Source of the DNA: Candidatus Woesearchaeota archaeon
Lineage (GTDB): Archaea; Nanobdellota; Nanobdellia; Woesearchaeales; GW2011-AR9
Assembly: GCA_018303285.1 (NCBI GenBank)
Contig: JAGVYL010000009.1
Coordinates: 1-35,120, forward strand
Length of the DNA stretch: 35,120 nucleotides
Direction of reading: 5' to 3'
The notes beneath the pieces are model-generated. The model saw only the letters and a list, made by a program, of their open reading frames with translations, was not told the DNA's origin and did not search any database. Each line of letters starts with the position of its first letter. Position 1 is the first letter of the stretch. The position numbers and the translations under genes were made by a program. Below, piece after piece: positions 2,134 through 11,887 of the stretch.

Positions 2134-2568
2134 CTAACAGAACTTCTCTTTTTCCAGCTCTTCGATGATCTGGTACTCGTGGAGCTCCTTCAGATTAAAG
2201 CTTTCTTTAAGACCGTCCCTGAAGTCTGTGTATTCCTTGATGTCTTTGCTTATCACTTCGGCCAGGAAATCAAAGCCTCCGTTGATTTCATGCAAAGAAT
2301 TGACTGAATGATGGTTCTGCAGGAACTGCTGCAAAGCTGGTTTCTGCTCCCGGCTCACTTTTAAAGCAAGATGGATGTGATGATGATACCCCAGCTTGGC
2401 AAAGTCCAAGAGAAGAGCTTGTTTTCTGATTACTCCTTCTTTCTGCAAGCGGGTGAGCTTATCATAAACAGTAGATAAAGGAACATTAAGAGCCTGAGAA
2501 ACTGCTCCCAAGCTCAGCCGGGCATCTTTTCTTAGATGAGAAATGATTAAACGCTCTTTTTCATCCAT
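2134..2568 (-). CDS. Lrp/AsnC-family transcriptional regulator
   Basis: This 144-residue protein has the usual length of the Lrp/AsnC family. Residues 1-55 form a winged helix-turn-helix (opening MDEKERLIISHLRKDARLSL, with a recognition region around NVPLSTVYDKLTRL). Residues about 62-140 form the RAM-like effector and oligomerisation domain (HIHLALKVS ... GGFDFLAEVISKDIKEY). Archaeal members bind inverted repeats near promoters as activators or repressors, often sensing amino acids. It starts 18 nt after the NYN gene and is probably co-transcribed with it. The ligand cannot be predicted. Because TTTCCG-type palindromes occur in its own neighbourhood (2064-2071 and 3171-3195), it is one candidate for the protein that binds them; that is inference only. 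Confidence 0.88.
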   Translation of the reverse strand: MDEKERLIISHLRKDARLSLGAVSQALNVPLSTVYDKLTRLQKEGVIRKQALLLDFAKLGYHHHIHLALKVSREQKPALQQFLQNHHSVNSLHEINGGFDFLAEVISKDIKEYTDFRDGLKESFNLKELHEYQIIEELEKEKFC

Positions 2569-3195: not shown

Positions 3196-3245
3196 ACGGG
3201 GAAAGGGTGATTAAAAACCCCGCTTAAGAATTCTTGGTGATTCAA

Positions 3246-4966
3246 ATGGAAAACTTTGAAATATTACTCGGTGAATATAGAAACTATTTTTTAGATCCTT
3301 CCGGGTCTAATCTGAAAGAGTTTTTACATTATTCCAATAAAATGCTTACTAAAGTTCTCCAGATGTATACTAAACGGGATGTCAAAGTAAAAATATCTTA
3401 TGTTGGAGAAAGAACTGCAGAGATAAGCATCCATGATAAGACCGACAGTTCTACTATAAAGAAAAAAATCTTTGATGCCGCATTTGAAATGCCAGAGAAC
3501 GGTCATTCTTTAGATGAACTTGTTGATACGTTAGGGGATCTGCTTCAAAGTGAAGTCTGCTTTAACACAAAATTTTTAGGTCAGATGCACCCTCATGACA
3601 GTATTCCTAGTTTCGTAGCAGGTATCACGGCTAAATTTTTGAATGGAAATACTGTAGCTGAGGAGGTTTCTCGAGTAACTACCTATCTAGAAAAACAAGC
3701 TGTTGGTTGGTTGGCTGAAGCGTGTGGTTATAACCCGGATTTAACTTGGTTGGAAGATATCAAATTAGAAGGTAAAATCAAAGAAGTGTTAGATAAAATG
3801 ATTGAACTTCCCTCTTCTTCGGGGAATATCACTTGCGGAGGAACTACTGCAAATTTTGCTGCGTTGTTAGTAGCAAGAAATAAGGCGTTTATGGAAGATA
3901 TTTACTGGCGAAAAGAGGGTGTAGCAGAAGCAGGACTAACAAAAAAAGAAGACTGCGTAGTATTTGGATCTGAATATTCCCATTACTCTATAGAAAAACT
4001 CTGTGGATATGCTGGTATCGGCTCAAAAAAATTCATTAAAGTTAATACTACTGATAAAAAAGTAGATGCTCGGGATACTCGCCCCGGTTCATTAAAGCAG
4101 ATGATGTGGCAGGCGGCCAAGGAGGGAAAAAAAGTATTGCAGTTGCTGGAACTACAGAAACCGGGAATATTGATGATTTAGAGGGGATTGCTAACTTATT
4201 AGATGAATTTGAAAACGAATTTGAGTATCGACCTCATTTTCATGTTGATGCGGCACATGGGGGGGGATTTGTATTTCATGACTTGTACAGCCCAAAGAAG
4301 AATGGATTATTAAAAGGTATAAATCGAGCAGATTCTATAACTGTTGATCCTCACAAAATGCTGTATACTCATTACAACGCAGGATGCATTCTTTTTAAAA
4401 ATAAGCAGGATCATTATTTGTTGAAGCAAACTGCAGATTATTTGTTCAAAAATGATGGAAGTTGTAACTTAGGGCAATTTAGAGTGGAAGGGTCGATGGG
4501 TTTAGAAGGAGCTATACAAACGTGGGCCAGCTTATTCTGTTTAGGTAAAAAAGGATATCAGACTATTCTCCAACACGTATTAGATCTCACCGAGTACTTA
4601 GAAGGAAAAATAAAAGCTACAACCTGCTTTGAGGTTTTGCACAAGAGAGAGATGAATATACTTTGTTTTAGATATTATAACCCAGAATTCAGCGAAGAAG
4701 TAAACAATGAGATAAACAAGGAAGCTCAGAAACGCATGTACGATACAGGCAAGGCTTACATATCTAATGAAAATCAACTGCATACTATCGCAGGAGAAAA
4801 AAAGAAAATTGAAGTTTTTAGAGCTATACCCATGCATCCATGGACAAAAAGAGAGGACATTGATTTTGCGTTTGAAGAAGTTAATAACGCAATTTGTAGT
4901 ACCTTATCTGATAGAGAGAAATACTTTCAAAGATCGATTGCTAGTATAAAAAACGGAGGGGCTTGA
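3246..4966 (+). CDS. PLP-dependent group II (aromatic/glutamate-type) decarboxylase, with -1 frameshift
   Basis: Two overlapping frames (3246-4181 and 4106-4966) together encode one group II PLP-dependent decarboxylase of about 573 residues. The first frame carries GQMHPHDSIPSF, the SGNITCGGTTANFAALLVAR cofactor region and SEYSHYSIEK. The second carries AGTTETGNIDD, HVDAAHGG and the PLP lysine in VDPHKM. The frames join without loss at an A7 run (4127-4133): reading GGA AAA AAA then stepping back one base gives ...KEGKK-SIAVAG, as expected for the family. ATG 3246 is chosen; TTG 3234 and GTG 3237 are in-frame alternatives. The stop at 4966 lies just before TyrRS. Tyrosine is the favoured substrate from context only; glutamate or another amino acid remains possible. 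It may be a sequencing error, a pseudogene or a real recoding site. Confidence 0.8.
4127..4133 (+). other. In-phase A AAA AAA slippery heptamer at the frame change
   Basis: The seven adenines fall in the 0 frame as GGA AAA AAA, which is the X XXY YYZ arrangement needed for -1 ribosomal slippage. Transcriptional slippage adding one A, or an undercalled A8 homopolymer, would restore the frame equally well. I see no obvious strong stem just downstream. Confidence 0.6.
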
Positions 4967-4968
4967 AA

Positions 4969-6189
4969 ATGGTCTTATCATACAATGAGATAGAACGTCG
5001 GATTAAATACCTGGGCCGAGGAGCATTTCAAATAATTGAACGGGATGAGTTAGCTTGGAAGATAGAAAAAGCGGACAGGGAAGGTCGATCGTTAATAGTT
5101 AAACTGGGAGTTGATCCTACTGCTCCAGATTTACATCTTGGCCATACTGTACCGTTAATGAAGCTGAAGCACTTCCAAGATTTGGGATATTCAGTAGACT
5201 TCTTGATTGGAGATTTTACTGCTTGCATTGGCGATCCAAGCGGCCGATCTTCTGCTAGAAAACCTATGACCGAAGAAGAAGTATTGAGCAATGCCGAGCA
5301 ATACAAACGGCAAATTTTTAAAATCCTCAATCCGGAATTGACTAACATTGTTTACAACAGCCATTGGCTTGGCCAAATGAAAGTTGATGATTTTATTCGT
5401 GTTTTGGGCAAAGGAACAGTCAATGAGATGAGCAAACGAAGCGGAGTGGCGGACCGCTTAGAAAAAAAGAATCCGGTTTCAGTAGCGGAATTTGTTTATC
5501 CTTTTTTACAAGCATACGACTCGGTGGAGATGAAAGCTGATGTAGAGATTGGTGGAGAAGATCAGTATTTCAACTTTGTCTTTACACGGGAGATGCAACG
5601 GCTTTATGGTCAAGAGCCCCAGGTTTGCATGACTCTTCCCCTGCTAATCGGTACAGACGGCATTGAAAAGATGAGCAAGAGCTTGAATAATCACATTGGA
5701 ATTGAAGAAAGCCCTTCAGAAATGTATCGCAAGGTTATGTCTATTGATGATAATCTTATTATTAAATATTTTGATCTTTTGACCCGAGTACCTTTTGAAG
5801 AAGTTTCTGATATGGAATCTGGTTTGCTTAAAGGAGAAAAACATCCTCGTGATTTAAAGGCAAGGTTGTCAGAAGAGATCGTTACTCAGTATCACAGTCG
5901 AGAAGAGGCGATTAAAGTAGCAGGAGAATTTGATGCAGTCTACAAACATCACCAATTACCTGAAGAGATGGAAGAAATATGTGTTAAATATGAAGACGGC
6001 ATTGATCTTCGACAGCTCCTTTTGGATATAGGAATGACAAAATCGCGCAGCAATGCTAAGCATCTAATCCTGCAGGGAGGAGTAAGAATTGACGGAGAGG
6101 AAATTCGCGATCCTCTTTACAAAGTGAATACCACTGATGGAATGATAGTTAATGTAGGAAAAATAAAATACAAAAGATTACGATGTTAG
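4969..6189 (+). CDS. tyrS: Tyrosyl-tRNA synthetase, bacterial type with S4 domain
   Basis: This enzyme attaches tyrosine to tRNA-Tyr. It is a class I synthetase of about 406 residues with bacterial rather than archaeal architecture: HLGH (the HIGH motif) near residue 56, GDFTACIGDPSGRS, a tyrosine-site region FVYPFLQAYDSVEM, GGEDQYFN, KMSKS near 234, and a C-terminal S4 RNA-binding domain (about 340-395, TKSRSNAKHLILQGGVRIDG). Archaeal TyrRS is shorter and lacks S4. ATG 4969 is chosen because GGAGGGG at 4955-4961 is ideally spaced for it; TTG 4963 is in frame but too close. It immediately follows the decarboxylase, a pairing also found in bacterial tyrosine decarboxylation operons. Transfer from bacteria is likely. 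Confidence 0.95.
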   Translation: MVLSYNEIERRIKYLGRGAFQIIERDELAWKIEKADREGRSLIVKLGVDPTAPDLHLGHTVPLMKLKHFQDLGYSVDFLIGDFTACIGDPSGRSSARKPMTEEEVLSNAEQYKRQIFKILNPELTNIVYNSHWLGQMKVDDFIRVLGKGTVNEMSKRSGVADRLEKKNPVSVAEFVYPFLQAYDSVEMKADVEIGGEDQYFNFVFTREMQRLYGQEPQVCMTLPLLIGTDGIEKMSKSLNNHIGIEESPSEMYRKVMSIDDNLIIKYFDLLTRVPFEEVSDMESGLLKGEKHPRDLKARLSEEIVTQYHSREEAIKVAGEFDAVYKHHQLPEEMEEICVKYEDGIDLRQLLLDIGMTKSRSNAKHLILQGGVRIDGEEIRDPLYKVNTTDGMIVNVGKIKYKRLRC

Positions 6190-6802: not shown

Positions 6803-7330
6803 CTAATTAATAACAAGACTTATTGCTGTTTCCACCGCTTCTTCGGGAGTGTTTACTGCCACACATTTTAATCGTTTCCGTTCATCAATAAATTCGCCCG
6901 CAAGTTTTTCACTCCAGCCTCCGAATCCAGTTATGCACACTATGGGTATATTTGCTTGATAAGCCATGGCCATTTCCGTCAACGTTCCAGAACCTCCACT
7001 GATTGCAATAATAACATCGCAACTATTTACAAGTACAAATTCTCTTCCTCCGCCTCGCTCAAGTCCGGTTCTTATGATTACATCTGTTGTTTCAGGATTA
7101 AAAATGTCCCTGCTTCTACCATAAGTAACACCGATGGTCATTCCTTCATATTTCTTTGCACCTCGAGCTGCTGCAGTAGATAACGAATCGTAATCTTTCT
7201 CTGCACCATAAACAAGTATATGGCCGTTCTTTGCAATTAATTCACCGATTTTTTCCGCTACTTTTTCCATCTCCTGAGAATATTCTAAATCTGCTGCAGA
7301 GCCCATGACTCCTATTTGAAGTGTTTTCAT
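6803..7330 (-). CDS. LOG/SLOG-family Rossmann protein (TIGR00725 type, possible nucleotide phosphoribohydrolase)
   Basis: This 175-residue protein has a LOG/SLOG fold: an N-terminal IGVMGSAAD strand-loop, a nucleotide-binding YGAEKDYDSLSTAAARGA region, GGGREFVLVNSCDVIIAI, and GGSGTLTEMAMAY (about 114-126), equivalent to the PGGxGTxxE signature of LOG phosphoribohydrolases. LOG enzymes split nucleoside 5'-monophosphates into base and ribose 5-phosphate, but SLOG relatives can also bind nucleotide ligands as sensors. The TIGR00725 branch has no settled role. It is the last gene of a five-gene minus-strand operon and its ATG overlaps the stop of the PfkB kinase by 4 bp, so a function in the same nucleotide pathway is likely. 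Confidence 0.82.
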   Translation of the reverse strand: MKTLQIGVMGSAADLEYSQEMEKVAEKIGELIAKNGHILVYGAEKDYDSLSTAAARGAKKYEGMTIGVTYGRSRDIFNPETTDVIIRTGLERGGGREFVLVNSCDVIIAISGGSGTLTEMAMAYQANIPIVCITGFGGWSEKLAGEFIDERKRLKCVAVNTPEEAVETAISLVIN

Positions 7331-8124
7331 TTTTTTCCCTCTAAAAAATCTGAAGTGTAATCCAAAGCAAATCTCATTGACTCAGTTACATCTTTAGTCT
7401 TATTAAATGTTACTAAAAAAGATGCGAAAAAAGTATCTCCCGCTCCAACAGTGTTGGTGATAATAGTTTTTCTTGGAGTGAACTTGAAGATTTTATTTTC
7501 GCTGATAATCGCAGCCCCTTTTCCTCCCAGAGTTATTATAACAATTTTTGGACCTATCTCCACAAACCTTTTCAATTTTTCCTCTACACTTAAACCGGGA
7601 AATATTATATCTGATTCAACTTCATTAAGTTTTAGTATGTCAATATGTTTTAACAATCCGTCTAAATTTTCTGGTTTCTTCTTCCAACTTTCTTTTAAGA
7701 ATTTCTTGTTTTTGTCACGCATAAATCCCTGCAGGTCTAATGCAAGAACTGATTTTTTTTCAAACATTGAAGGCTGGACCTCATCAAAGAGAGGTGACAA
7801 GAATAAAATATCTGGAGCTAATAACTCTTTAGGTACTAAGGTTATATCCAATTCTGTATTTCGACTAATTATTGCGCAGCTTATATCTTCCTCTTCTTTG
7901 ATGTGCAAAGTAGTTGTCTCGTCACATATTTGCAATCCTCTACAGTCAAACAGTTCTTTGTTTTCTTTAAGCTCAATCGTTCCTATCTTTGAAACTATCC
8001 CATAATTCAGATTTAGATTTTTACAGACTTTACTGAAGAAAAACGGAGCTCCACCGAGTTTTATTTCTTTCTTGCCTCCAAGTTCCAGTATATCTCTAGT
8101 TATTGTTCCAAAACAAGTTATCAT
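7327..8124 (-). CDS. PfkB-family sugar/nucleoside kinase
   Basis: This 265-residue ribokinase-fold protein has an N-terminal substrate lid region with LGGAPFFFSKVCKNL (the GG pair of PfkB signature 1), LNEVE at 166-170, ITLGGKGAAII near 198-208, and TNTVGAGDTFFASF near 223-236, whose GAGD holds the catalytic Asp230. The residue before TVGAGD is Asn where many members have Asp. Family members phosphorylate ribose, nucleosides, fructose phosphates or related sugars using ATP; the exact substrate cannot be read. It overlaps the HAD gene and the LOG-like gene by 4 bp on either side, and its position between them argues for a nucleoside or ribose-derived substrate (inference). Confidence 0.88.
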   Translation of the reverse strand: MITCFGTITRDILELGGKKEIKLGGAPFFFSKVCKNLNLNYGIVSKIGTIELKENKELFDCRGLQICDETTTLHIKEEEDISCAIISRNTELDITLVPKELLAPDILFLSPLFDEVQPSMFEKKSVLALDLQGFMRDKNKKFLKESWKKKPENLDGLLKHIDILKLNEVESDIIFPGLSVEEKLKRFVEIGPKIVIITLGGKGAAIISENKIFKFTPRKTIITNTVGAGDTFFASFLVTFNKTKDVTESMRFALDYTSDFLEGKK

Positions 8125-8780
8125 TTCAGTACCTCAACTAATTTATTGATATCTGTTATTTGATATCTTGCTTTAGTCGGTTTATTATATGGATTTACCA
8201 GCACGGTTGTGATTCCCAACTCCAGAGGTACTTGTATATCAAGTTTCTCGTCATCGCCTATCATCAAAGTTTCTTTAGGCAATACTCCAAATTTGTTTAT
8301 TATCTGTAGATAGCTCTCTCGCGTTGGTTTTCTTATCGCGGTTTCTCCAGTCCACACATTTCCACAAAAATATTTCTCGATGCCTATCTCTCTAAGCACA
8401 TTTAATACCCAAGGTTGGGGAGCATTTGTTAGCACGGCTAGATTGGGAGCTATTTTTGTTAAAACCTGATCTAACGTTTTTGCGTGGATTGCCCCCCGTT
8501 GAATATAATCTCGGGGGTGGATCTTACCCCATGTATGAGAAAAATATTCATCCATTGAAACACCCAACCTCTCATTGAAAGCCCGACTTATTTCTCCTCC
8601 ATAATCAATAAAAAAATTATGGAAAATGTTCTTTGCTTCATCCTTCGCATATTTTTTGGTTTCTGCAATTAGGTCTATCGATTTTTCTATAACCTCCTGC
8701 CAGAAGGGAGAGTCTAAAAAAGGGCCATCTGGCTGCTGATACAACGTTCCATCACAATCAAAGATGATTAGTTTATTCAT
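8121..8780 (-). CDS. HAD-superfamily hydrolase (phosphatase, pyrimidine-nucleotidase-like)
   Basis: This 219-residue protein has all four HAD motifs: FDCDGT with nucleophile Asp8 and Asp10, LTNAPQPW (motif II), a KPTRESY lysine (motif III), and MIGDDEKLDIQVPLELG (motif IV). An alpha-helical cap lies between motifs I and II. The layout resembles SDT1/pyrimidine 5'-nucleotidase-like and phosphoglycolate-phosphatase-like proteins, with dephosphorylation of a small phosphate ester the probable reaction. ATGA overlaps link it to the phosphatase-like gene upstream and to the PfkB kinase downstream, so it is likely a step in the same pathway. The substrate is unassigned. Confidence 0.88.
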   Translation of the reverse strand: MNKLIIFDCDGTLYQQPDGPFLDSPFWQEVIEKSIDLIAETKKYAKDEAKNIFHNFFIDYGGEISRAFNERLGVSMDEYFSHTWGKIHPRDYIQRGAIHAKTLDQVLTKIAPNLAVLTNAPQPWVLNVLREIGIEKYFCGNVWTGETAIRKPTRESYLQIINKFGVLPKETLMIGDDEKLDIQVPLELGITTVLVNPYNKPTKARYQITDINKLVEVLK

Positions 8781-9232
8781 TTTTGTCCAACCAACTCCTC
8801 CAAAATCGTTCTTTTTACTGCATCCCTGCTTTCTCTTAGTTTCTGATATGTTTCTTCATCTACAGGTGCTAATCCATCCATCTTTGCTCCAGGATCATCT
8901 ATTTTAATTCTGATGACCTTTTTTGAATCTTTGAGATAGTCCGGGAGATATTCATGTTTACATAGAACAGCTATGATAGAAGACCGATCAACTAATTCTG
9001 GGGTTACAAGCCTCATTGTTTGAGGTGATATGTCCACTCCGATTTCTGCCATGACTCGTACAACGTCTGGATGTGGACAATTATTGTATTTCTCTCGGTA
9101 ATCTGCAATTCCCGCGCTTAAAGCTTTACCCCAACCCAAAGAGTTGTAAAATCCTTCGGCCATTTGACTTCGAGCTACATTTGCATAACAAACAAACAAC
9201 ACATCAATCTCATTCGATTCAGTATTCTTCAT
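8777..9232 (-). CDS. Low-molecular-weight phosphotyrosine-phosphatase-fold protein (ArsC-like)
   Basis: This 151-residue protein has the LMWPc P-loop CYANVARS (Cys15 to Arg21, CX5R) near the N terminus and the general-acid Asp-Pro in KIDDPGAKMDG toward the C terminus. GIADYREKYNNCPHP and AEIGVDISPQTMRLVT are typical of the arsenate-reductase-like branch. Known members dephosphorylate phosphotyrosine or reduce arsenate; arsenate reductases need extra redox cysteines, which are not clearly placed here. The 4-bp overlaps with the phosphoribosyltransferase gene upstream and the HAD gene downstream point instead to a small-molecule phosphatase in the operon's pathway (inference). Confidence 0.85.
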   Translation of the reverse strand: MKNTESNEIDVLFVCYANVARSQMAEGFYNSLGWGKALSAGIADYREKYNNCPHPDVVRVMAEIGVDISPQTMRLVTPELVDRSSIIAVLCKHEYLPDYLKDSKKVIRIKIDDPGAKMDGLAPVDEETYQKLRESRDAVKRTILEELVGQK

Positions 9233-10263
9233 TTCGCATCCCTCCCTATCTGCGCCATGTAAGCATCAATTTTAGTTTTTATTTGATTATATCCCGGACA
9301 TAGTTGGTCTAACTCTATCAGAGTACTACAGATTTCATCTTGGTTACGCATTACCTTTTCTCTGTCAATCTGTTCCGCAAAATATTTAGATGCCCAAAGG
9401 AAAGGGTTTTTTGCGTGGTAAGAGTTCTCCGGTGGATTACCTCCGGAAAGTATAAACCTCTCCTCCGCCACCAACCTCATTATTTCTTCTACGTTAAATA
9501 CTTCAGGAAATAGTAAATTTAAGGTATCTAAATTTTTAAGCTCGTTCCTTACCTCTGATGAAGTATCCCCATTGTATCCCATAATTTTCTGCAGTTCTAC
9601 TGATTTTTGAAAAGCTTCTTTTAATCGGGGATGATGATGTAAATCTTTTAAATGCCATCCGTCATCGTTAGGGGATTTTATTTGATATCCCGCAAAAACG
9701 TTTCTACCTTTCAATACATCTGCGGCTCCATCCTTGGAACCTAGTCTCCCTATGTTTAAGATTAAATATGCATGATCTGGGTTTGCAATTCCAAACTTTT
9801 TTTCAACATACAGTCCAGTGCCTCCGCTAAAGCTTACATCATCTAAAATAAGCACTTTTTTTCCTTTAACCACTTGTGCTATTTCTTGGATTCTCTGTTC
9901 TGAACATTTTTGCCGATATCCTGTCGTAGTCAGCAACGGGGTATCAACTTGTCTCACTCGACTTAAACCAAAGTCTGTTATTAGATTTGTTTTTGGAAAA
10001 AGTTCTGTTACTAATCCTCCAAGCCATCCCGTCAAATCAAAGACTACTTCATAATCATTTTCTTTAATCTGCGAGGTGATTTTTTTGATGCATGGTATCG
10101 GATCTAAAATAACTTGTTCTAAATCTCTTCGACTACAAAGCTCAATAAGGTTCGAATATAATCTGTCTATCCTTTCCCAATCTGATGGAAGAGATTCTGC
10201 TCTTGATTCATCCATCATCCAAACTACTCGTTCTAACTTATCGCCGGTGATACCGACAACCAC
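9229..10263 (-). CDS. Phosphoribosyltransferase-domain protein, first gene of the five-gene operon
   Basis: The central part (about 75-200) is a type I phosphoribosyltransferase-like domain with a PRPP-binding signature LILDDVSFSGGTG near 138-150 and a preceding segment VVFDLTGWLGGLVTELFP. The C-terminal 150 residues match no family I recognise. PRTases join a base to PRPP or reverse that reaction; the base is unknown. The open frame extends upstream to a TTG at 10362, but that lies inside the tRNA-Tyr gene, so I place the start at GTG 10263 (344 residues). The nearby ATG is out of frame and no clear Shine-Dalgarno is seen. The stop overlaps the next gene by 4 bp. Confidence 0.75.
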   Translation of the reverse strand: MVVGITGDKLERVVWMMDESRAESLPSDWERIDRLYSNLIELCSRRDLEQVILDPIPCIKKITSQIKENDYEVVFDLTGWLGGLVTELFPKTNLITDFGLSRVRQVDTPLLTTTGYRQKCSEQRIQEIAQVVKGKKVLILDDVSFSGGTGLYVEKKFGIANPDHAYLILNIGRLGSKDGAADVLKGRNVFAGYQIKSPNDDGWHLKDLHHHPRLKEAFQKSVELQKIMGYNGDTSSEVRNELKNLDTLNLLFPEVFNVEEIMRLVAEERFILSGGNPPENSYHAKNPFLWASKYFAEQIDREKVMRNQDEICSTLIELDQLCPGYNQIKTKIDAYMAQIGRDAK

Positions 10264-10336
10264 CCTTGTTTTCCAGTTCCATTTTATTTTTCCCCCGATT
10301 AATTTAAATCCCCCCTCCCGGATTCGAACCGGGGAT

Positions 10337-10366
10337 TTCGAGTAGTGGACGATTAGGTCCAACTAT
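10337..10366 (-). other. tRNA intron 2 in the variable loop (45/46)
   Basis: This is a predicted 30-nt non-canonical intron. Exon CGAG (10372-10369) pairs with intron CTCG (10342-10339) as a 4-bp central helix flanked by 3-nt bulges GGA and AAA, followed by an inner stem TAGT(T)GGAC/GTCCACTA with loop CTAATC. The outer helix is missing, so this is a relaxed motif. Cutting after the second base of each bulge leaves exactly the five-base variable loop GGATC. Confidence 0.65.
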
Positions 10367-10374
10367 CCCTCGGT

Positions 10375-10434
10375 GACTATTGGCTGACTGAGTTTCATTC
10401 AGAGCATTTGTGCTTCGTCCCTCAGCGCATAAAG
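10375..10434 (-). other. tRNA intron 1 at position 37/38 with bulge-helix-bulge motif
   Basis: This 60-nt intron sits at the canonical site after G37. Exon CTGT (32-35) pairs with intron ATAG (10380-10377), giving a 4-bp central helix. It is flanked by 3-nt bulges AGC (5' site, cut AG/C) and TCA (3' site, cut TC/A), the classical substrate of the archaeal splicing endonuclease. The rest of the intron can form further stems, for example AGCA/TGCT. Confidence 0.75.
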
Positions 10435-10471
10435 CTACAGCCGAGTGTTCTAGCCACTAAACTAAGATTTC

Positions 10472-10696: not shown

Positions 10697-11887
10697 ATGG
10701 ACGATAACCGATTAGTAGAATTGACTAAACAGTTGATAGAATATCCCTCATATCATTTTCAAAGTAGTATACGGGTTGTAAACTTTTTAGATAGTTATCT
10801 CCTTGACGAGACTGATAGAGACGCAGAAATTGACTTGATTAATAATCTAGATGGTAGCGGACAAAACATCCCTTGTTTATACGCTAAAAATAAAGAAGAG
10901 ATGCCAGAAAAACCAACTGTCCTTCTTCTTGGTCATCTTGATGTTGTCCCTGCAGATACACCTCAATTTACTCCCTGTATAAATGGAAGTAGATTATACG
11001 GGCGCGGAGCAGGAGATATGAAAGCAGGGGTAGCCGTTGCTACTCAACTATTTATTGAACATTATAAAGAATTAAATCTTCAACTTTTAATGACTACTGA
11101 TGAAGAAACCGGAGGGAAATATGGGACAAAGATAGTTTCGAAAATGCTTAATCCTGATTTTGTGATTACCCTCGAGCCAAGCGATTTAAAGATTTGTACT
11201 AAACAAAAGGGGGCATTGGCTATTGAGATTGAAGCGCACGGTCCTGGTGGCCACGCTTCTCGCCCGTGGAAGAGTACCAATGCAGTAGATATATTGATTG
11301 ATATGTACAATCGATTACGAGAATTTTTTCCTGATCTAGATACAGAATTATGGACAAACACTATGAATGTCGGAGCAATTGTAGGAGGAACTGTTAAAGC
11401 AGAAAAAGATAGAATATTATTTGGGGGGGCAAATATTATTGCTGCGAAAGCATCAATGAAATTGGATCTACGATTAACTGATAATATGTCTCATACAGAA
11501 GCGATAAACATTATTAAAAAAAACGCTGCAGATATTGGATACAAACTTAAAGGCAGAAGTGATTCCCTCGGTTTAATAGATAATTGTTATAAAATACTAG
11601 TTAATGAACCTAGTGTAATCGCAGACCATCTTATCACTTCAGAGAAGGATACCTTTGTCAGACAGTTGATGGAATCCTACCGATTCTGTTTGGGAGAAGA
11701 AGCCGAGTTATATTCCGGCCCATCTGCTAGTGATGCACGTTTTTTTAGCAAACGAGGAATACCCACTGTAGTTTTTGGTCCGATTTCTGTGAATCAACAT
11801 GGAGAAAATGAATATGTGGAAATACCTTCAATTATAGATACTTACCGAGTATTAGATACCTTTCTTAGTACAGTAAAAAGAGACTAA
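10697..11887 (+). CDS. M20-family metallopeptidase (ArgE/DapE/ACY1-like)
   Basis: This 396-residue zinc hydrolase has the complete M20 set: GHLDVVPA (metal His and Asp), [10 protein letters not shown] (bridging Asp), TTDEETGG (catalytic Glu and metal Glu), a TLEPSD metal region, GPGGHASRP in the dimerisation domain, and SDARFF plus QHGENEYV at the C terminus (last metal His). The family includes acetylornithine deacetylase, succinyl-diaminopimelate desuccinylase and dipeptidases. No lysine or arginine pathway genes lie nearby, so peptide or N-acyl amino acid scavenging is the safer guess. ATG 10697 has no close Shine-Dalgarno. It lies alone on the plus strand before the HerA-like gene. Confidence 0.9.

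Follow-up and report, generated by a model that had tools for sequence, protein, structure and literature searches.

The window operon and its products

The stretch of DNA analysed here, hereafter the window, comprises 35,120 nucleotides of a Candidatus Woesearchaeota archaeon (assembly GCA_018303285.1, contig JAGVYL010000009.1) whose genome, of about 1 Mb in 50 contigs, is 94% complete. An operon of five open reading frames (ORFs) lies on its minus strand between positions 6803 and 10263, and includes genes for a phosphoribosyltransferase (PRTase) and a SLOG protein, the two members of the set on which our analysis centres. In the order of transcription, the genes are:

9229 to 10263, minus strand: class I PRTase-like protein, a predicted divergent relative of the PRT2 family defined below (PF00156, 18.7 bits; motif for phosphoribosyl pyrophosphate, PRPP)
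8777 to 9232, minus strand: low-molecular-weight (LMW) phosphotyrosine phosphatase/ArsC-fold protein (PF01451, 44.9 bits against a cut-off of 23.2)
8121 to 8780, minus strand: HAD hydrolase, pyrimidine-5'-nucleotidase-like, 'HAD1' (PF00702, 69 bits against a cut-off of 26.4; TIGR01993, 64.6 bits)
7327 to 8124, minus strand: short PfkB-family kinase (PF00294, 73.5 bits against a cut-off of 25.8)
6803 to 7330, minus strand: SLOG-cluster-4 protein of a tight subfamily (PF18306, 111 bits)

All five coordinates, and the ATGA overlaps that join the genes (9229-9232, 8777-8780, 8121-8124 and 7327-7330), were confirmed in the sequence. A previous interpretation of the same DNA, made from its letters and ORFs alone (the sequence-only reading), took the overlaps to mean that the five proteins are made in matched amounts. 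However, overlaps of 4 bp join 8 of the 32 same-strand neighbour pairs of the window, and therefore indicate a compact operon and not matched protein amounts; four in a row are unremarkable here. What goes beyond chance is the conserved neighbourhood of SLOG and a PRTase, not the run of overlaps. The start of the PRTase gene is uncertain: the ORF opens at a TTG (10362), and since a tRNA-like sequence (10315-10466) covers part of that stretch, the GTG at 10263 chosen by the sequence-only reading is a reasonable start, but either codon could be used.

A SLOG subfamily with LOG-like residues and a different loop

The SLOG protein scores 111.2 bits against PF18306 (LDcluster4; cut-off 26.3) over residues 4-166, which places it in SLOG cluster 4, and falls below the cut-offs for LOG (PF03641, 20.1 against 27 bits; NF058542, 33.1 against 300). 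The description of the gene as LOG-like thus holds for an intact pair of residues and not for membership of the classical family. In LOG, the cytokinin riboside 5'-monophosphate phosphoribohydrolase, catalysis involves an arginine and the glutamate of a GGxGTxxE motif; the putative counterparts, Arg96 and Glu119, are invariant in nine SLOG sequences and stand at the same spacing to the GG as in LOG. The window protein shares its fold and this Arg/Glu spacing (GGGREF...SGGSGTLTE) with LOG and with the TIGR00725/MoCo carrier proteins, its best solved relatives being 1rcu, 6y01 and the MoCo carrier 2iz5, with a weaker match to LOG (7w2i). Unlike LOG and TIGR00725 proteins, however, it scores under both cut-offs and its nucleotide loop is altered. 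The subfamily is marked by the motifs GAEKDxDSLSTAAARGAK, GGGREF and SGGSGTLTE, and the largely invariant loop GAEKDxDSLST stands where LOG has GGGxxGLMG; because of this exchange, the ligand probably differs from that of LOG.

The window SLOG is 54-71% identical to relatives in bacteria of the candidate phyla radiation (CPR), DPANN archaea and Bacillota, and falls in a supported clade of mixed CPR and DPANN sequences, a topology that fits transfer between the domains without proving it. The subfamily was not found in a search of viruses. In one locus (L175:7956-9260) SLOG is fused to a domain that we assign to the AstE/aspartoacylase-like deacylases by resemblance to another locus, L108; such deacylases also occur as free-standing genes next to SLOG elsewhere.

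PRT2, an undescribed PRTase family

The gene that usually adjoins SLOG codes for what appears to be an undescribed family of class I PRTases, defined here and called PRT2. The AlphaFold model of PRT2 (predicted local distance difference test score, pLDDT, of 97) has 58 Foldseek matches with E <1e-3, led by OPRT and APRT (best 2.8e-5), the top 50 of which are all PRTases or PRTase-fold proteins, and the PRT2 profile matches OPRT, PyrR and PRPP synthetase at the PRPP site; the modelled fold is thus that of a PRTase. No Pfam family scored above its cut-off in the three PRT2 members scanned. PRT2 shares the PRPP motif and the core fold with the class I enzymes OPRT, APRT and PyrR, but carries additional helices at the N terminus and a conserved stretch at the C terminus (CERDF/ELRDL, PFG..WASIP), and its whole-chain TM-scores to known class I PRTases are only about 0.3-0.5. 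The best viral structural match is an uncharacterised protein of Acinetobacter phage vB_AbaM_ME3 (A0A172Q0R7; TM 0.52/0.63, E 1.8e-5).

The PRTase of the window matches PF00156 weakly (cut-off 26.3), the alignment falling on the PRPP motif (hydrophobic-DD-x4-GxT), which is present as VLILDDVSFSGGT and is that of class I PRTases. Taken together with its relative from locus L164, it aligns to PRT2 in hhalign with a probability of 94.3-94.6%, whereas none of eight unrelated neighbour families exceeds 1.1%; the single window sequence gave 3.2%, and the 94% was reached with L164 and a deeper PRT2 alignment. Since the two also share columns beyond the PRPP loop (R104, R119, Q124, D141, G147 and D207), we regard the window PRTase as a predicted divergent relative of PRT2 in the same genomic position, that is, in one operon with SLOG. 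Its model has a pLDDT of 55 (70-84 in the core) and UPRT as top match (2ehj, E 7e-4), and was built on a guiding alignment that contained PRT2 sequences. L164, in which the PRTase gene overlaps SLOG by 22 bases, is the one clear relative of the window protein in about 570 genomes. Among 190 related genomes there was none save one generic PurF-like match, among 380 CPR genomes only L164 and one weak match in the region of the PRPP motif, and plasmids, phages, viral contigs and a pattern scan of genome contigs gave none.

A conserved core of PRTase and SLOG

The best 80 of 106 SLOG loci from a scan of 85,000 genomes were joined with the window and other relatives from its order into 83 distinct loci, in which neighbours were counted within six genes. 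The hosts are CPR bacteria, DPANN archaea, gut Bacillota and one alphaproteobacterial bin. PRT2 lies near SLOG in 46 of the 83 loci, in 33 directly adjacent and on the same strand. Among 191 related genomes, 10 carry the SLOG subfamily and 8 a full-length PRT2, with both in 6, either alone in 4 and 2, and neither in 179 (Fisher P=9e-8, a value that, like the other P value below, overstates independence, because similarity to SLOG was the basis on which the loci were collected and many of them are akin). Other neighbours of SLOG are M20 proteins (13 loci), PfkB (11), Cof-type HAD proteins (9), HAD proteins of the window type (7) and APH-like kinases (6).

The PfkB kinase of the window carries the motifs DxQG(F/Y)xR and GAGDTFFA, and its subfamily adjoins SLOG in 10 other loci; in one archaeon (L088/L106) PfkB and SLOG are fused in a single protein of 405 amino acids, encoded between PRT2 and the gene for histidyl-tRNA synthetase (HisRS). 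The HAD protein, with an intact DxDGT motif, is of a type that adjoins SLOG in six other loci (L099, L100, L119, L121, L142 and L152). The LMW phosphatase has an intact CX5R loop (C-YANVA-R); 14 of 190 related genomes have a relative of it, and its family is found near none of the 82 other SLOG loci. An assignment of this protein as the thioredoxin-linked arsenate reductase ArsC was rejected (56 bits against an equivalog cut-off of 174.3; one redox cysteine is missing by eye).

The exact set of five genes, which the sequence-only reading had treated as one pathway, is therefore not conserved: the LMW phosphatase, absent from the surroundings of every other SLOG locus, is accessory, and the particular PRTase of the window has its single clear relative. 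What did recur on the search for co-occurrence is a unit of PRTase, PfkB, HAD and SLOG, seen in the PRT2-SLOG adjacency across two domains, the PfkB-SLOG fusion and the HAD type of the six other loci, and the residues expected for catalysis, the PRPP motif of the PRTase and the LOG-like Arg and Glu of SLOG, are in place. The conserved core is thus PRTase and SLOG, often with PfkB and this type of HAD protein, both optional. That the five are unrelated housekeeping genes, loosely joined in an operon of a compact genome, would account for the common 4-bp overlaps and for an LMW phosphatase with no conserved link, but hardly for PRTase-SLOG, PfkB-SLOG and HAD1-SLOG adjacencies that recur across domains, nor for a fusion, and we regard it as highly improbable.

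Histidine genes around SLOG

At least one histidine gene is present in 51 of the 83 loci: HisRS in 37, HisG in 15, HisR/YerC in 10, histidine ammonia-lyase in 7, HisI in 5 and HisE in 4, and HisA, HisF and HisH also occur. Moreover, tRNA-His accounts for 23 of the 54 tRNAs in the loci, and in the archaeal loci L106 and L107 it lies 101 and 37 bases upstream of PRT2. The TrpR-type regulator found near SLOG matches TIGR02531 (YerC), which in Firmicutes is known as HisR, the histidine repressor (PMC9413887). With 662 bits against a cut-off of 539, the ammonia-lyase is a true hutH. HisD is absent from 42 of 44 genomes tested that carry this SLOG, that of the window included and many of them draft assemblies; a classical, full histidine pathway is therefore unlikely in most of these organisms. 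Six loci (L098, L109, L113, L134, L136 and L150) have genes for the front half of histidine synthesis (HisG, HisI/HisE and, at some of them, HisA/F/H) in genomes with no HisD match.

HisZ in place of HisRS was considered and set aside: HisRS is preferred because most of the sequences keep its motifs and all have a C-terminal region resembling the anticodon-binding domain. Queuosine salvage, since His and Tyr tRNAs share queuosine, was likewise rejected, as there is no link to Asn or Asp and the leader peptides are rich in His only. A group I intron match (Rfam, 61.8 bits) lies near SLOG in a Wolfebacteria locus (L131:6724-6945).

Probable control by histidine in bacteria

Three kinds of apparent histidine control are seen in the bacterial loci: HisR/YerC, beside ten loci; His-rich leader peptides; and +1 frameshift sites. 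Short ORFs rich in His precede the target genes in 13 of 14 cases, against 43 of 215 (20%) for other residues (P=9e-9, from loci that are not fully independent). In one CPR locus a leader peptide (L111:3640-3684, MKKVTAIHHHHHHQ) precedes the genes for tRNA-His, HisRS, ammonia-lyase, HAD, SLOG and PRT2, with the tRNA-His between the leader and hisS, and in another a leader peptide with a terminator (L136:5256-5332, MTIKRHHHHLHHTMDHRVYRAICAE) stands ahead of a permease-like gene; by their sequences, both of these CPR leaders, each with its terminator, would be textbook cases of a histidine leader peptide. In six gut Bacilli the leader, the arms of the antiterminator and the terminator align as a conserved attenuator. 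T-box leaders were searched for and none was found. The same His-rich leader and terminator, HisR/YerC, HisG, HisI/HisE and HisRS are met in histidine operons under attenuation or HisR control (PMC9413887); in contrast to those operons, HisD is mostly missing here, and the genes under control are PRT2, SLOG, PfkB, HAD and ammonia-lyase.

A candidate +1 frameshift site in PRT2 of gut Bacillota

In ten gut Bacillota genomes PRT2 is split over two frames at the sequence CCC_CAT, and a slip of +1 is needed for the full-length protein. Site A, before I[VI][TS]LD, is found in eight gut Bacilli (L154, L158, L163, L167, L168, L203, L204 and L205); site B, at a different place but again CCC_CAT, is found in two metagenome-assembled genomes (MAGs) of Clostridia (L172 and L174). 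On slipping, tRNA-Pro re-pairs perfectly with CCC, and the resulting full-length PRT2 aligns to its unsplit relatives; in the 0 frame, where the His codon CAT occupies the vacant A site, a stop follows five or six codons past CCC_CAT. Of the codons for proline, about 3% are CCC in the loci of Bacilli and 6% in the loci of Clostridia. An assembly error is an unlikely cause of the split, because independent MAGs share the site and the unsplit relatives read CCT or CCA. Shine-Dalgarno-like pairing upstream lies beyond the 5th percentile of the background in 8 of the 10 split genes, and in L168, L203 and L205 a GGGAGG stands exactly three bases before the CCC.

The programmed +1 frameshift of prfB, the gene for release factor 2, uses an internal Shine-Dalgarno sequence three bases ahead of a slippery codon and a slow A site. 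The three genes with GGGAGG share all these elements with prfB, but the slow codon in PRT2 is a sense codon for histidine and not a stop. An Ile codon (ATN) in the +1 frame leaves CAT as the only possibility in the 0 frame, so that the choice of codon alone does not prove a histidine gate; the case for such a gate rests on the two independent sites and on the other controls. It is, in our estimation, an evenly balanced proposition that gut Bacillota make PRT2 only when the ribosome slips at CCC_CAT because the CAT stays empty, the cell thereby reading its charged tRNA-His through a hungry codon. If so, this would be natural, starvation-gated programmed frameshifting, on a new pair of histidine-salvage enzymes common to CPR and DPANN. 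According to a review, there were then no known examples of hungry-codon frameshifting that gives a starvation-specific protein (Atkins et al., 2016; PMC5009743), and the titles and abstracts covered by a later literature search contained no contrary example. The sites make testable a question decades old, whether hungry-codon frameshifting serves as a natural amino-acid sensor.

A possible role in histidine starvation

The evidence consists of gene content, homology, active-site motifs, genomic linkage, leader peptides and frameshift sites, and from it we infer the direction of the reactions and the substrate. The pair appears to belong to a gene set for histidine supply in CPR, DPANN and gut Bacillota, which in bacteria would be expressed when charged tRNA-His is short. 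With moderate confidence, we read the window operon as the Woesearchaeal version of this undescribed PRT2-SLOG pair, and the pair as a histidine-starvation system for phosphoribosyl/base salvage. PRT2 would make, or in reverse break, the ribosyl-5-phosphate bond on a base of imidazole or purine type; SLOG would hydrolyse the ribotide to base and ribose-5-phosphate; and PfkB kinases and HAD phosphatases would interconvert riboside and ribotide. In this way the set may provide, by salvage or synthesis, a compound related to histidine, most of its hosts having no complete histidine pathway. Urocanate is a possible intermediate, hinted at by the ammonia-lyase under a histidine leader in L111 and L119. 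CPR and DPANN organisms are without most amino-acid pathways, and a PRTase-SLOG pair with ties to histidine is a concrete candidate for how they secure this one. A literature search, with subscription papers mostly outside its reach, found no description of the gene set.

Several observations weigh against this interpretation. The window has no HisRS, tRNA-His, his gene or leader peptide (HisRS elsewhere in the genome was not searched for), its genome has no match to HisG or HisD, and a tRNA-like sequence, possibly with a GUA anticodon, and a tyrosyl-tRNA synthetase (TyrRS) gene lie beside the operon. A histidine role for the window copy, deduced from the family, is therefore probable only. 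Its PRTase is only about 13% identical to PRT2 in the joint alignment and its model, at a pLDDT of 55, is poor. Histidine ammonia-lyase normally breaks histidine down, and fits starvation only if it runs in reverse or on another substrate; the leaders of the six gut Bacilli are one homologous element; and the kinship of the loci, noted above, counts on the same side. Lastly, the substrate class is left broad, as imidazole-type, purine-type or a histidine adduct.

The sequence-only reading had proposed that the operon serves, in general terms, to make, salvage or destroy some unusual nucleoside or nucleotide. The recurrence of PRTase, PfkB, HAD and SLOG as a unit with intact motifs bears that idea out in part, but the full set of five is not conserved and the link to histidine had been missed. 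A route with no tie to histidine, HisRS and tRNA-His being incidental neighbours, would suit proteins that all handle ribosyl phosphates (a PRTase, a nucleotidase-like HAD of TIGR01993, PfkB and a LOG-like SLOG) and a window that itself has no histidine genes. It would leave unexplained why the same gene pair is accompanied by HisRS in 37 of 83 loci, by 23 tRNA-His among 54 tRNAs, and by HisR/YerC, His leaders and frameshift sites at a His codon, and is in our view unlikely. The same reading drew an analogy to the PRTase and HAD genes proposed in Ter operons. The two genes lie side by side there as well, but the neighbours here are others, namely histidine genes (HisRS, tRNA-His, HisG/HisI/HisE, histidine ammonia-lyase and HisR), and Ter-type biology is not indicated; no TerD/TerC-type gene turned up among the annotated neighbours, although no search was aimed at Ter families.

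A role in signalling has also to be weighed. Under histidine shortage PRT2, or HisG alone in L092 and L138, might make a phosphoribosyl nucleotide that is sensed or cleaved by SLOG, as a histidine-specific alarm nucleotide; SLOG proteins elsewhere bind nucleotides (Thoeris literature), and in those two loci HisG adjoins SLOG in the absence of HisI/HisE or HisD. We hold this to be decidedly unlikely, however, given that the PRT2-SLOG pair has no conserved effector gene beside it and that its frequent partners (M20, deacylase, kinase and phosphatase) suggest metabolism.

Surroundings of the operon

Other features of the window near the operon are:

10315 to 10466, minus strand: tRNA-like sequence immediately upstream of the operon, interrupted by two inserts that resemble introns (22.7 bits to the Rfam tRNA model, whose gathering threshold is 29)
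10697 to 11887, plus strand: M20 peptidase/deacylase, a divergent neighbour (PF01546, 84 bits), of the kind counted above near SLOG in 13 of 83 loci
4963 to 6189, plus strand: TyrRS (TIGR00234, 350 bits)
2134 to 2568, minus strand: Lrp/AsnC-type regulator (PF01037 and PF13412), of a family that recurs near SLOG in other DPANN loci

The tRNA-like sequence has, by eye, a possible GUA (Tyr) anticodon and no convincing acceptor stem, and ARAGORN reports no tRNA gene there. No aminoacyl-tRNA synthetase other than TyrRS was found near the operon; in other loci HisRS is the usual one. The window copy might thus have exchanged histidine for tyrosine, or the system might serve tRNAs with GUN anticodons, those for His and Tyr carrying queuosine in many organisms. 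The tRNA-like sequence stands directly upstream, where L106 and L107 have tRNA-His, and TyrRS lies 0.6 kb from the 3' end of the operon and is also near PRT2-SLOG in L122 and L153. Yet TyrRS is near only 3 of the 83 loci, about as often as arginyl-tRNA synthetase (4), and with a tRNA-like match below the Rfam cut-off, no link to Asn or Asp and leaders rich in His only, we think such a shift very unlikely.

Farther from the operon, a pyridoxal phosphate-dependent decarboxylase (PF00282) is split over overlapping frames on the plus strand (3234-4181 and 4106-4966), near GGAGGGAAAAAAAGT at about 4121-4135, the cause being a -1 frameshift or else an error in a homopolymer run.

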